From: a virus | Direction: 5' to 3' (one strand) | DNA: 31,142 bases | IMG/VR virus record: IMGVR_UViG_3300014819_000019 | Span: 315-31,456 of that record | Shown: one piece after another, positions 2,490 through 26,713 of the stretch | Layout of the letters: each line of letters begins with the position of its first letter | Numbering within the stretch: the first letter of the stretch is position 1 | Made by a program: the position numbers and the translations under genes | The notes under the pieces: model-generated | Seen by the model: only the letters and a program-made list of their open reading frames with translations | Database searches by the model: none | Told to the model about the DNA's origin: nothing

Positions 2490-4313
2490 TTAATATGAAG
2501 TTCTTGCCACATCAAAAGCATTACCATAATCCCCATTTGGAACAGATGCTGGTCCAGCATCTGTTCCATTTGATGGCCAACCATATTGTGATCCCGTATA
2601 CGTCCCCGCAAAATATGCATATCCACCAACTACAACATAATAATAAGTTCCATCATAAAATGGAACTATAGAGTCTGTATTTAAAATAACAGATCCTGCC
2701 CACTTTATGACTAGTTGTCTAATATAAGTGTTTGGAGTAGTTTGGATACCACCCGATCTTGTGTACCATCCGTATGATGGTGTTGATTGTGTTGCTGGAT
2801 TATAGTTAATAGATGTAGAAGTTTGAAAAGATGTTGGTGAAATAACTGGATATATTACCACCCTAGAGTTATTATTTTGATCACCTGCAGATCCTCTATA
2901 TGGATCTCCAGCATCAGCAAATGAACTTGTAGATCCGCTGGTTACATATGATCCATTAATATATCCAGATCCTCCTCCACCACCAGAGGAATTTCTAGTT
3001 GTATTTCCAAAATCATTGCCACCGCCGCCGCCGCCTCCACCATAATATCCTCCGCCTCCACCGCCGCCGCCAGCAGCGTTTGTAAATTGAGTGATTACTC
3101 CAGATCCACCAGTTCCTCCTTGAAGCGCATCACCTGCCGTCGCTGCGACATTTGTTGTAAAAGCACCAGCAGAAACAAGAACTTCAATATCGTCCCAAGA
3201 TCCACCACCATCATTTGCCTGAACTCTTTGAGGATTTGTTGGATCAACTCTTACGGCACTAAATCCTGTTGTGTCATTTGTGGCAGTAACTAAGTATGTT
3301 CCAGCACTTACAAATATTGTTTCTGGATTTGGTGTATTATTTTCTGGGAAGTTTTTGATACCTTGAATATTTAATCGGTTAAAAAAACCAGAATTTTCTG
3401 TTACATAAAACGATACATTTTGAGAACTATCAAGACGGTAATAAAGATTGGTATCTATTGGATTACCACCACTTCCACCAGAACCTTGTGATCCACCAGC
3501 ACCACCAGTGGATCCTATTTCACTATTTGAGGAAGATGTTCCAGTTGCACCAGAGGAACCACCACCACCGCCGCCAGCAGAACCGTCTCCTCCACCACCA
3601 GATCCACCAGCAATCATCATTGCAGAACCTTGATTGATTCCAGTCCCAGCAAACATTCCAGCCAGTCCACCTCCAGATTGTGCCGAATTTATTTTAGATC
3701 CAAATCCAGTTCCAGCATTTCCTCCACCATAGTTTAACTTAACTGTATAAGTTGATCCAGATCCAAATGCAACTTGTCCAGTCGAATATCCACCAGTTCC
3801 ACCCGATCTACCCTGTCCCCACATTTTTGTAATCTTATTAAAGTTTCTAGATGGAGAAAGTGTGTATGTTGTGTTTGTTCCACCATCTAGAATTAGAGGT
3901 CCGTCAACTGCAAAAACCCAGGTGGTCTTTCCACTCACCGCTGGTGTAACCGAAAGATCAGCACTGACAACAGTAATCACGGCCTCATTGCTTGTTACGC
4001 TATCTGCGTTATTAGAACTTAAAATACAACGATACCTGTCTCCATTATCATTTGCCACTGATAAAACTGGAGTTGTATAACTATTGCTATTTGTCCCAAC
4101 ATTATTCCAAGATACACCAGAATTATCTGATCTTTGCCACTGATATGTGATTGTACCGTCAGTAATTCCTGCGACAACGGTAAATGTGGATGTAGAACCT
4201 TCTGCACATGCAGCAGAAGTTGGGTGTGAAATAATAGTTATTAATTCTCTTCTTCCTAGAAATCCGTATCCTATTGCACTTAAAGAAGACGAAGTTCCTA
4301 AAATTGGTGCCAT
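2490..4313 (-). CDS. Tail fibre/adhesin with Ig-like domain and polyglycine motifs
   Basis: 607 residues. After a short N-terminal anchor comes an Ig-like domain at about residues 33-115 (Cys-Ala-Glu, TYQWQRSDNSGVSWNNV, DNGDRYRCILSS), with the paired cysteines and central tryptophan of the fold. The middle, roughly 155-470, has many glycine runs, including GGGGGGGGGYYGG near 415. These recall the glycine-rich receptor loops of T-even gp38 adhesins and polyglycine-II sandwiches. The C terminus (TYYYVVVGGYAYFAGTYTGSQYGW) is aromatic. It is the last gene of the baseplate/tail operon. A host-binding role is inferred. Such genes recombine and mutate fast, so weak homology is expected. Confidence 0.75.
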   Translation of the reverse strand: MAPILGTSSSLSAIGYGFLGRRELITIISHPTSAACAEGSTSTFTVVAGITDGTITYQWQRSDNSGVSWNNVGTNSNSYTTPVLSVANDNGDRYRCILSSNNADSVTSNEAVITVVSADLSVTPAVSGKTTWVFAVDGPLILDGGTNTTYTLSPSRNFNKITKMWGQGRSGGTGGYSTGQVAFGSGSTYTVKLNYGGGNAGTGFGSKINSAQSGGGLAGMFAGTGINQGSAMMIAGGSGGGGDGSAGGGGGGSSGATGTSSSNSEIGSTGGAGGSQGSGGSGGNPIDTNLYYRLDSSQNVSFYVTENSGFFNRLNIQGIKNFPENNTPNPETIFVSAGTYLVTATNDTTGFSAVRVDPTNPQRVQANDGGGSWDDIEVLVSAGAFTTNVAATAGDALQGGTGGSGVITQFTNAAGGGGGGGGYYGGGGGGGGNDFGNTTRNSSGGGGGSGYINGSYVTSGSTSSFADAGDPYRGSAGDQNNNSRVVIYPVISPTSFQTSTSINYNPATQSTPSYGWYTRSGGIQTTPNTYIRQLVIKWAGSVILNTDSIVPFYDGTYYYVVVGGYAYFAGTYTGSQYGWPSNGTDAGPASVPNGDYGNAFDVARTSY

Positions 4314-22820: not shown

Positions 22821-22849
22821 ATTTTAACATAAAAAAAGAGGGGTGTAAA
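22821..22849 (-). promoter_or_regulatory. Sigma70-type promoter for the thyX-phoH unit
   Basis: TTTACA (22844-22849), a 17-base spacer and TAAAAT (22821-22826) on the minus strand. The -35 box is the loop region of the terminator hairpin described at 22831-22853, so the end of one transcript and the start of the next overlap. Confidence 0.7.
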
Positions 22850-22853
22850 CCCC
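22831..22853 (-). terminator. Intrinsic terminator after the riboswitch-controlled unit
   Basis: On the minus strand GGGGT, a TTAC loop and ACCCC are followed by TC and seven T residues. The stem of five pairs with the U run is a standard factor-independent terminator. It lies 17 bases after the stop of the 43-residue gene and closes the short transcript that begins near 23254. Confidence 0.75.
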
Positions 22854-22869
22854 ACCCCCCCAAAAAATA

Positions 22870-23001
22870 TTATTTGAGTGATGCTAGTTGTGCCGCTTTA
22901 CGACGCTGTTCTTTTTGAATTTGTTCTTTAATCAGTTGAAGAACATTGATCTTACGATCTTCAACGTTACACTTAACACTGCGATGAGTTGCTGTTGTCA
23001 T
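22870..23001 (-). CDS. Small basic helical protein, 43 residues
   Basis: Starts at ATG 23001 after a strong ribosome-binding site (AAAGGAG, six to seven bases upstream). The sequence begins MTTATHRSVKCNVEDRKINV and ends in a basic helix (LIKEQIQKEQRRKAAQLASL). It is the second and last gene of the riboswitch-led transcript, 42 bases after the 50-residue peptide and just before a terminator. No family is recognised. The basic helix could bind RNA or a host protein; this is a guess. Confidence 0.75.
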   Translation of the reverse strand: MTTATHRSVKCNVEDRKINVLQLIKEQIQKEQRRKAAQLASLK

Positions 23002-23043
23002 TAGGTTTGCTCCTTTACTTGTTTAGGGTGAGGTAACGTTCCT

Positions 23044-23196
23044 TCAGTCAACTTTTGCGTCTATCTTACACTCCTTTGGAGAAACTTGTTTGAGTTCCCA
23101 AATCAGTTCATTTTTTTGTTGTTTGGGAATATTTTTTTGATAAATTCTTCCCGCAATTAGTTGTGCCTGTAGACATGTTAAAATGAGTGTTTCCAT
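23044..23196 (-). CDS. Short peptide gene downstream of the glutamine-riboswitch-like RNA
   Basis: 50 residues from ATG 23196: METLILTCLQAQLIAGRIYQ, KNIPKQQKNELIWELKQVSP, KECKIDAKVD. The first helix is hydrophobic, the rest basic then mixed, with the ending SPKECKIDAKVD. I recall cyanophage peptides of the form ...LLLTC.QAQ...R ... E.K..SPKEC.IDAK. and regard this as one. Downstream-peptide riboswitches are named for such short ORFs. The gene lies about 58 bases after the predicted transcription start. Function is unknown; a link to glutamine or nitrogen state of the host is inferred from the RNA element. Confidence 0.8.
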   Translation of the reverse strand: METLILTCLQAQLIAGRIYQKNIPKQQKNELIWELKQVSPKECKIDAKVD

Positions 23197-23252
23197 AGAT
23201 GAACGAAATCCGTTCCGAGTCGCTTACTTCCGTCTGGTTTCCCAGATGAACG
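23197..23252 (-). promoter_or_regulatory. Glutamine riboswitch-like RNA (downstream-peptide/glnA family) with expression platform
   Basis: The aptamer is 23211-23252 on the minus strand. P1 pairs CGTTC (23252-23248) with GAACG (23215-23211). P2 is TCTGG/CCAGA closed by a GAAA tetraloop. The family-typical segment GACGGAAGTAAGCGA follows. These match the glutamine-binding glnA/downstream-peptide RNAs of cyanobacteria as I remember their consensus. From 23205 to 23197 the nine bases CGTTCATCT are repeated just before the start codon; GAACG can pair with this second CGTTC instead, giving an alternative hairpin that ends four bases before the ATG. This suggests control of translation initiation. 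Confidence 0.82.
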
Positions 23253-23260
23253 ATAGGAGT

Positions 23261-23289
23261 ACTATACTCCCTTTCGTGATATTTAGCAA
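23261..23289 (-). promoter_or_regulatory. Sigma70-type promoter placing the riboswitch at the RNA 5' end
   Basis: TTGCTA (23284-23289), 17-base spacer, TATAGT (23261-23266) on the minus strand. The start expected seven bases downstream is A at 23254, two bases before the first P1 base. The -10 box lies in a small GGAGTA/TACTCC inverted repeat. The spacing match between promoter and aptamer supports both calls. Confidence 0.7.
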
Positions 23290-25078: not shown

Positions 25079-26713
25079 ATGTATAGATCACAAAGAATTG
25101 TCGTTGTTGGTGGCGGCACTGCTGGTTGGTTCTCAGCAACAACTTTAAAAAGATTTTTTCCAGAAAGAGATATAACCGTTATTGAAAGTCCCAAAGTCCC
25201 GATTATTGGCGTAGGAGAAAGTACCTTAGGATACTTTACTTACTGGTTACATGCAATGGGTATTGATGAAAAAGTTCTTTTCCAATACACAGACGCTTCT
25301 TATAAATCCAGTATTAAGTTTACGGACTTTTACAAAAAAGATGCTGGAGGATTTCACTATCCATTTGGCAGACCATGGACTCCTAACGAACTTTTTGGAG
25401 ATATTGGTGCTAAAGCTTGGCAGTATAAAAAAGTTTTTTATCCAGAAACTCCAGTAGAAGATTACTGCAGAACAATATATCCTCATATGCCATTGATTGA
25501 AAATAATAAAATAAACAAAAATGAGGAAGGAAAACTAGAAGATTATACATTTATACATGCAAATGCATATCATTTTGATGCTGTTAAGTTTGGAATATTT
25601 CTAAGAGATCATCTATGCGTTCCAAATGGAGTTAAACACATTACGGCGGAAGTAAAGAAAGTTGTATCGGATGAAAATGGAGTTAAAGAAGTCGTTCTTG
25701 ATGATGGAAGAGTCATTCAAGGTGATTTATTCGTTGATTGTACTGGATGGAAAAGTCTTCTGATAGGTGAAGAAATGGGAGAACCTTTCTTATCCTACGA
25801 TCACCTTATTCCAAACAATAAAGCTTGGGCAACAAAAATTCCATATACAGATAAAGAAAAAGAACTTGAACCATATACCAACTGCATAGCATTGGGAAAT
25901 GGATGGGTTTGGAATATTCCTCTCTGGTCAAGAATTGGAACTGGGTATGTCTATTCTGATAAGTACATCTCAAAAGAAAATGCTCTAGAAGAGTTTAAAA
26001 GATACCTTAAATCAGATAAAATGAGCCATTATGATCCAAACAGAAATGTAGATGATCTTGAGTTCAAAGATATCAACATGCGTATTGGAATTCATCGCAG
26101 AACCTGGGTTAAAAATGTAGTTGCCATCGGTCTTGCTGCTGGATTTATTGAACCATTGGAAAGCACAGGTTTATACACTGTTCACGAATTTCTAATGAAA
26201 CTGGTGAGTTACATAGATAGAGATTATTATAATCAGTTTGAGATTGATTCATATAATGCGACAACAAGATTAATGTTTGATGGTCTATGTAAGTTTGTTG
26301 CCGTTCATTATGCTCTCTCACACAGAGACGATACTGAATACTGGAGAGATGTTAGAAAAAGATCTTATGCATCGTATTTAATCGATGATGTTCAAACAAA
26401 TCAAGCAATAGAACTTCAGTATTGTGTCGACCAGTTTGGAGAACTTGTTGCTAGAAAATCGCATGTCCATGAACACAATCTACGTTCAGGCAATCACTGC
26501 ATTTTAAATGGTCTGAACTATAATGTAGTTAGTATGGAAAATGTTGTTCATGATGGATTCTATGGATATGGGCCAAGTGTTGAGGATGCTAAGAAAACGA
26601 TTAATCAGATGATGGTTAAGTGGGAGGAAAAGCAAAAAGAATGGCAAAAAATTGCCGATGAATCTCCAACTCAAATGCAATACTTATACGATAATTTTTA
26701 CAAGCATTTTTAA
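25079..26713 (+). CDS. prnA: Flavin-dependent tryptophan-halogenase-like enzyme
   Basis: 544 residues (PrnA has 538). The FAD-binding motif is VVVGGGTAGWFSA (8-20). Lys76 in DASYKSSIKF matches the essential lysine of PrnA and RebH that forms the chloramine or guides HOCl. The halogenase WxWxIP motif is WVWNIP (276-281). AGFIEPLESTGLY (354-366) holds the glutamate near the substrate. GVGEST (44-49) is also conserved. The enzyme would halogenate an indole-type substrate using FADH2 from a separate reductase, which is not found here. Similar genes occur in some cyanophages. The true substrate is unknown, and a peptide or other aromatic is possible. Confidence 0.9.
   Translation: MYRSQRIVVVGGGTAGWFSATTLKRFFPERDITVIESPKVPIIGVGESTLGYFTYWLHAMGIDEKVLFQYTDASYKSSIKFTDFYKKDAGGFHYPFGRPWTPNELFGDIGAKAWQYKKVFYPETPVEDYCRTIYPHMPLIENNKINKNEEGKLEDYTFIHANAYHFDAVKFGIFLRDHLCVPNGVKHITAEVKKVVSDENGVKEVVLDDGRVIQGDLFVDCTGWKSLLIGEEMGEPFLSYDHLIPNNKAWATKIPYTDKEKELEPYTNCIALGNGWVWNIPLWSRIGTGYVYSDKYISKENALEEFKRYLKSDKMSHYDPNRNVDDLEFKDINMRIGIHRRTWVKNVVAIGLAAGFIEPLESTGLYTVHEFLMKLVSYIDRDYYNQFEIDSYNATTRLMFDGLCKFVAVHYALSHRDDTEYWRDVRKRSYASYLIDDVQTNQAIELQYCVDQFGELVARKSHVHEHNLRSGNHCILNGLNYNVVSMENVVHDGFYGYGPSVEDAKKTINQMMVKWEEKQKEWQKIADESPTQMQYLYDNFYKHF

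Follow-up and report, generated by a model that had tools for sequence, protein, structure and literature searches.

The stretch of DNA analysed here (the window, 31,142 nucleotides) belongs to a 45-kb IMG/VR virus contig; the named phages closest to it are the T4-like freshwater Synechococcus phages S-SRM01, DSL-LC02 and DSL-LC03. The window also carries a group I intron on the minus strand (1558-1759; RF00028, 62 bits) near two tRNA genes (1831-1905 and 1935-2025), and a tryptophan halogenase gene on the plus strand (25079-26713; PF04820, E 1e-101). The locus of interest, on the minus strand, is probably a small phage transcription unit composed of a promoter, a nested RNA of ~220 nt, two short genes and a terminator. 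Its features are given below, with the P1-type strands numbered 1 (CGUUC), 2 (GAACG), 3 (CGUUC, 5' of the ATG) and 4 (GAACG, 3' of the stop codon).

23261..23289, minus strand: promoter-like TTGCTA-17-TATAGT (9/12 matches)
Within 23261..23289, minus strand: dyad GGAGTA..TACTCC around the -10 box
23036..23254, minus strand: predicted nested glutamine-riboswitch RNA as a whole, embedded open reading frame (ORF) included
23248..23252, minus strand: strand 1 CGUUC, predicted outer P1 5' strand, pairing with strand 4 (23041..23037) in an unguided RNAalifold consensus of 25 compact loci
23233..23246, minus strand: P2a arm, compact hairpin UCUGG GAAA CCAGA
23225..23232, minus strand: J2/3 CGGAAGUA, holding ligand-site G22 and G23 and the loop E AGUA (contacts per PMC6698751, PMC5393176)
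23218..23224, minus strand: p3a AGCGACU, 5' strand of the long-range P3
23211..23215, minus strand: strand 2 GAACG, pairing with strand 3; G60' comes next, at 23210
23201..23205, minus strand: strand 3 CGUUC, inner P1, the second copy of the earlier note discussed below (kept 50/50)
23195..23199, minus strand: P2b 5' strand UCUAU, including the AU of the start codon
23044..23196, minus strand: embedded 50-aa ORF, PHROG 504-like, two cysteines, predicted helical hairpin
23060..23064, minus strand: P2b 3' strand AUAGA, within codons 45-46
23054..23059, minus strand: inner J2/3 CGCAAA, whose C23' pairs with G60' (23210)
23046..23053, minus strand: p3b AGUUGACU, P3 3' strand, coding for the last residues and the first stop-codon base
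23042..23045, minus strand: J3/1 GAAG, overlapping the stop codon UGA (23046..23044)
23036..23041, minus strand: strand 4 GAACG, closing the outer P1, then nt 60
23010..23016, minus strand: Shine-Dalgarno-like AAAGGAG of the downstream gene (found in 204/209 relatives)
22870..23001, minus strand: downstream 43-aa ORF, degenerate relative of YRG/DUF4278-like peptides
22837..22861, minus strand: terminator-like hairpin and T run, closing the unit

Taken alone the promoter match is weak, five such sites occurring in 600 bases compared with 1.8 expected; among relatives, a TATAAT-like box (TANNNT) lies 4-12 nt 5' of strand 1 in 171/191. The -10 box lies at the centre of an inverted repeat in the window (23256-23270, minus strand) and in 191 related upstream regions, the symmetry of the repeat being kept and its sequence varying among phages (e.g., GTGTTAATATTAACAC, TAGGGGTATAATAATCCCCTA). 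The best arm of this repeat was 5.55 compared with 4.61 ± 0.08 in shuffles, and the repeat sits 5' of the expected RNA start.

A glutamine-family aptamer, as proposed in an earlier note on this DNA, was recovered with the covariance model of the glnA-type glutamine riboswitch (RF01739), which matched 23254..23207 (minus strand) at 38.3 bits (E 4.7e-5 for the window), above its curated gathering score of 35 bits; the note had named the lack of such a hit as one of its refutation tests, which the aptamer thus passed. The note had left the family as downstream-peptide or glnA; only the latter held, the downstream-peptide model (Glutamine-II, RF01704) reaching 16.5 bits in the window, under its cut-off of 33. 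P1, P2, J2/3 CGGAAGUA and the loop E partner GAA in J3/1, the elements of RF01739 membership, are all present when the 3' half beyond the ORF is counted, and the 5' half of the window RNA by itself is without J3/1. The note's nine bases, CGTTCATCT, do occur twice on the minus strand (23252..23244 and 23205..23197), the second copy adjoining the ATG at 23196. A promoter-like site likewise stands just upstream, but the leader is not minimal as had been thought: the GAAG of J3/1 and the partner of pair 23:60 lie beyond the ORF at 23045..23036. The interval 23197-23289 was also too short, matching RNA elements running across and past the ORF to 23036.

A search of viral contigs with the peptide only gave 206 relatives, 80 of which were fetched and 50 distinct ones compared. 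Retention of the second CGTTC, set beforehand as a refutation test, was complete (50/50 distinct relatives, nine bases before the ATG), and strand 2 and CG[GC]AAGTA were each kept in 49. In 48/50 distinct relatives a 3' half, CG[CG]AA..AAGGAACG, came after or overlapped the stop codon; this 3' half, ATAGACGCAAAAGCCGACTGAAGGAACG, codes for the last seven residues and the stop and then continues, and it is that of a glutamine aptamer. A short-P2 pattern search for the second unit found ~100 loci with the same flanks and a plain hairpin replacing the ORF, and other loci were split in the first unit, with ACGTTCATCCTATG, a 68-aa ORF and then ATAGGACGGAAGTAAG. Where strand 1 was not nearby and enough upstream sequence was available, CGTTCA was found 192-242 nt upstream in 67/67 loci, and after it a strand able to form 3-8 contiguous pairs with the far side of P2. 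Among the 218 nested loci, the P2a/P2b arms were hairpin/ORF in 84 (the window type), hairpin/hairpin in 68, ORF/ORF in 36 and ORF/hairpin in 30, proportions that depend on the search patterns, which are biased to intact copies. One locus (L035) has an intact 5' part and terminator-like sequence instead of the post-ORF 3' half, which is lost.

Named isolates carry the same element. In P-RSM4, P-HM2 and P-SSM4 both embedded genes lie within the RNA and are annotated as hypothetical (T4-GC 429 and its neighbour); both arms are also filled in S-CAM1, S-CAM9 and S-T4 combine a hairpin P2a with an unannotated 56-57-aa P2b ORF, and the window-type ORF is present, unannotated, in DSL-LC03. A host origin was considered and rejected: a strict nested pattern had 0 matches in 84,980 bacterial and archaeal species, and a looser one gave chance matches only in a 257-Gb collection. 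Single aptamers of the ordinary kind whose P2 holds an ORF were also sought and rejected as a category: among 148 canonical-core sites only L234 was without a nearby strand 1, and it is tandem. That locus (627-950) has two canonical-looking cores; its second P2, closed by an 8-bp helix, holds a 57-aa ORF with two cysteines, and the locus may stand as an intermediate between the tandem and the nested form.

Because the four P1-type strands have the same, invariant sequence, P1 cannot separate two aptamers in tandem (1:2, 3:4) from one enclosing the other (1:4, 2:3), and the RNA could adopt the tandem pairing as an alternative state. In the nested arrangement, the outer part would be a canonical glutamine-I aptamer in which strand 1 pairs with strand 4 ~200 nt downstream; J2/3 CGGAAGUA is supplied by the 5' half and J3/1 GAAG by the 3' half, and the P3 arm, with no terminal loop, opens into an inner junction. 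The long-range pair 23:60, which shapes the glutamine site in crystal structures (PMC6698751, PMC5393176), then links J2/3 in the 5' half to the nucleotide that follows strand 4 and was standard in 218/218 loci (G:C in 143, C:G in 71, the rest G:U or other), compared with 34% and 33% of these loci if two tandem aptamers are assumed. In the window nt 60 is U, a wobble with G23, and in relatives it is C or G; C:G replaces G:C inside the freshwater ORF/ORF group as well (L051, L073). The long-range P3 pairs the segment after J2/3 with that before GAAG (AGUCG/CGACU, GGACGG/CCGCCC, AAACGAC/GUUGUUU, CAAC/GUUG). Its mean duplex energy was -4.19 versus -3.11 ± 0.23 with shuffled partners (0/2000), two-sided changes were found at 5/8 pairs, P-RSM4 adds a further one (AUUCG/CGAAU), and P3 also has two recurrent non-standard C.A positions.

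Overall, 94.9% of cells were paired in the nested structure, with 88 two-sided cells versus 24 when shuffled and 5-12 when slid, counts that are inflated by related sequences. Elements specific to the tandem fold were paired in 50-68% of cells, and its local P3 pairs in 50-55% with zero two-sided change. RNAalifold, run unguided on 25 compact loci with distinct P3 pairs, returned 1:4 with 2:3, and Infernal with RF01739 aligned two compact loci of ~95 nt (L330, 42.9 bits; L371, 35.6 bits) each as one aptamer, the inner part being a 41-48 nt insert in P3. In all 68 compact loci the energy of the nested fold was below that of the tandem fold; for the full window RNA, the minimum-energy fold is without P2b. 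The idea that the two local AGCCGACU stems cross-pair as kissing loops was set aside, nested P3 accounting for those strands, and membership in the tandem glutamine doublets was rejected for want of an own P3 (50-55% of cells) or own 23:60 (33-34% of 218 loci). Sequence comparison across loci shows a nested pairing that is split across the gene, with selection on both RNA and protein.

Read from P3, the inner junction runs through strand 2, a short loop, strand 3, A, P2b and CGCAAA back to P3, which is the order of a glutamine aptamer opened at P3 and closed at P1, and therefore a circular permutation. It retains C1, G2, C58, G59 and G22 as well as the 23:60 pair, i.e., the glutamine-contacting nucleotides of both known classes, and is without loop E. 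The inner 23:60 pair was paired in 96%, as C:G and once as G:C (L207); in S-SRM01 (L001) the inner 60' base is A. Glutamine may bind at both the outer and the inner site. The second CGTTCATCT copy had been read as a spare strand against P1, with GAACG contested by the two copies. GAACG (23215..23211) does pair with the second CGTTC (23205..23201), but this copy is no mere competitor of P1 and instead forms the 5' strand of an inner, gene-bearing, aptamer-like junction.

In the window the 50-aa gene makes up the loop of P2b, with its AUG in the P2b 5' strand and its UGA straddling P3 and J3/1. The window peptide family matches PHROG 504, of unknown function (phrog_504, E 3.3e-5). The predicted fold of the window peptide is two helices (8-20 and 25-38, pLDDT 84.8); no Pfam match was found for the 50-aa ORF, and a solved-structure search with the peptide profile had none below E 0.1. 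With pN/pS at 0.26 in the ORF interior (codons 4-43), the family is under protein-level selection, and in codons 44-50, which overlap the RNA, synonymous variation falls from 0.61 to 0.22, the codons GAC, GCA and GAC of this region being invariant in 77 sequences. Codon 49 was GTT in 13/13 loci with p3a CAAC and otherwise mostly GCC (p 2e-10; like the other p-values for the embedded genes a guide only, the sequences being related), from which the RNA appears to dictate residue 49 of the peptide.

Distinct ORFs numbered 60 in P2a (59-73 codons) and 113 in P2b (mostly 50-56 codons), and the embedded peptides have a hydrophobic start and two invariant cysteines in common. ORFs of both arms start within 3-7 nt of CGTTCA, with the AUG in or adjoining the P2 5' strand, and stop within the P2 3' strand, just 5' of it, or in the junction; in several loci the start codon pairs with the stop-bearing strand (UCUUAUG with CAUAAGA). 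The embedded starts are without a clear Shine-Dalgarno site, and initiation is therefore probably Shine-Dalgarno-less. Across a 200-nt gene the P2a helix is kept (UCUUAUG/CAUAAGA, UCUCAUG/UAUGAGA, UCCAAUG/UAUUGGA, UCCUAUG/AAUAGGA), with 5.39 contiguous pairs versus 4.06 ± 0.24 in shuffles (0/5000). P2b in the ORF type is a short helix with an almost invariant 5' side and zero two-sided change, and 272/5000 shuffles reach the observed value. In three loci (L134, L205, L158) the embedded P2b ORF is shortened to 17-25 codons with its start context intact, and the RNA may there be outliving its gene. The embedded ORF of S-SRM01 (L001, ~3030-3200) has lost its stop (GAC GGA) and reads on through strand 4.

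Several other explanations were weighed. Two ordinary tandem aptamers with their own ligand sites, the second split by the ORF, would form a pseudo-cooperative doublet as in PMC9481103; locally the sequence elements follow one another as in two successive aptamers, the P1 strands are interchangeable, RF01739 aligns the 5' half of the window alone, and true tandem glutamine aptamers with local P3 stems are found in phages (L224, L243, L284, L285). We consider this unlikely, as tandem pairing fails at 23:60 in two thirds of loci, P3 and 23:60 covary only as nested, the nested fold is lower in energy in 68/68, and GAAG and AAGUA, the two sides of loop E in glutamine-I, occur once each in opposite halves, leaving the first half without GAAG and the second without AAGUA. 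As the ligand-bound state the tandem fold is largely refuted; as a ligand-free alternative it could survive. The earlier note's own model, in which the second copy contests the P1 3' strand and ligand frees the AUG of the 50-aa peptide, correctly drew on the GAACG/second CGUUC pairing, which is real and invariant. We regard the model as improbable nonetheless: its 5' half alone has neither the J3/1 GAAG nor a partner for G23, it leaves the conserved 3' half past the ORF unexplained, and the same RNA occurs with no ORF after the second copy in the 68 hairpin/hairpin loci. The nested fold with a canonical pocket has the second CGTTC base-paired and the start codon within P2b, and it is more likely that glutamine would hide the start codon of the 50-aa ORF than free it.

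The RNA-like flanks might alternatively mark a recombination or cassette-exchange site, where their main role would be to supply the DNA homology through which phages swap small ORFs, the fold being a relic. Several unrelated-looking ORFs, or none, do occupy the same arms, and a GIY-YIG-like ORF is found between strands 2 and 3 (L054/L062, L239/L293). Homology conserves sequence and not complementarity, however, and P2, P3 and 23:60 change on both sides, which makes this explanation hard to credit, although ORF swapping can be true in addition to a riboswitch role. The inserted ORF, of ~190 aa and inside P3 (L062/L054, 909-1490; also L239 and L293), looks by eye like a GIY-YIG-type homing endonuclease; it had no Pfam match. 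Finally, the motifs around the ORF could reflect only protein conservation together with a fixed translation-start signal, the peptide's KIDAKAD/KIDAKVD being conserved. Synonymous changes, however, drop exactly at this motif, the sequence stays conserved past the stop codon, and identical RNA is found with no ORF in compact loci, by which this highly improbable account is already refuted.

Immediately 3' of the nested RNA the unit offers a second target, of a better-known type than the 50-aa ORF: a DUF4278-like gene preceded by a good Shine-Dalgarno site. Site and start follow strand 4 by ~30 nt in 204/209 loci, and a YRG-like motif was present in 153/170 downstream peptides. Scores of the relatives' peptides against DUF4278 were 14.3-22.3 bits, under the Pfam cut-off of 25.3, and the 43-aa ORF of the window had no DUF4278 Pfam match. 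The downstream genes resemble the N-terminus of a glutamine synthetase inactivating factor, and host glutamine riboswitches are ON switches for DUF4278/IF17 genes (PMC6316151). The host gifB/IF17 and DUF4278 genes under such riboswitches share with the phage unit a DUF4278-like peptide downstream, but the phage peptides are short and below the Pfam cut-off, and the window copy is degenerate.

Of the known systems, Glutamine-I (glnA RNA, RF01739; structure PDB 5DDP, Ren et al., 2015, as cited in PMC6698751 and PMC5393176) shares P1, P2, J2/3 CGGAAGUA, the loop E partner GAA, GAACG and the long-range 23:60, as well as a downstream gene with a Shine-Dalgarno site. In the phage RNA, by contrast, P1 spans a whole gene, P3 leads into another junction that is circularly permuted, the P2 arms can hold genes and 23:60 is often C:G. 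Glutamine-II (RF01704; PMC6698751) has in common with the inner junction a C:G long-range pair, a CGCA linking strand and the lack of loop E, and a small peptide gene lies nearby in both, but its architecture is a pseudoknot with a hairpin around GGAACG and the window scored below its threshold (16.5 < 33 bits). The 157 glutamine riboswitch doublets in PMC9481103 were taken as tandem only without intervening ORFs, gaps over 300 nt being discarded; they too have two glutamine aptamer-like units in succession, whereas here the halves are exchanged and one unit encloses the other. In the Mycobacterium tuberculosis metE B12 riboswitch (PMC11260477) a short ORF also overlaps the aptamer and is translated, influencing the downstream gene. 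That upstream ORF is non-AUG, belongs to a different riboswitch class and is of unknown conservation, while the ORFs here are conserved proteins that occupy the P2 loops precisely, their start and stop codons falling in helices or junctions. Glutamine riboswitches in cyanophages were already known (PMC9964418, PMC9602691). In the open-access literature we found no paper on DUF4278 together with cyanophage, nor any account of ORFs lying inside glutamine aptamers, of two glutamine aptamers nested one in the other, of aptamer arms formed by genes or of a glutamine site in permuted form.

We favour, with a probability of roughly 0.7, a single nested glutamine-sensing RNA around the 50-aa gene, with a canonical outer and a permuted inner aptamer, acting as an either/or switch between two peptides. 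With glutamine present, the nested RNA would close, locking P2b and the embedded start codon and silencing the embedded gene, and the downstream DUF4278-like gene would be released or enhanced, as in host glutamine riboswitches, from which this ON direction is borrowed. With glutamine absent, ribosomes on the embedded gene would cross P2b, P3 and J3/1 and thereby prevent the aptamer from closing. The aptamer could not fold while the embedded gene is translated, nor could the gene be translated while the aptamer is folded, so that glutamine-driven closure may switch the embedded and downstream genes reciprocally.

Natural riboswitches have been treated as leaders before genes, whereas here a predicted ligand-binding domain encloses genes, in up to two of its arms. 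The element occurs in T4-like cyanophages of lakes and oceans, including long-studied isolates in which the embedded genes are annotated as hypothetical and the RNA went unnoticed; standard RNA searches miss such elements because a gene-sized gap breaks the covariance model. It offers a testable case of competition between ribosome and ligand and of natural circular permutation of an aptamer, and links phage small peptides with host nitrogen state. At even odds, in our judgement, these RNAs would represent a riboswitch class in which complete, selected protein genes serve as aptamer loops, with the start codon in one helix strand and the stop in the opposite one or within the binding junction; ribosome and ligand would compete for the same RNA, and the nested sites, one canonical and one circularly permuted, would give cooperative, reciprocal control of the embedded and downstream peptides during infection.
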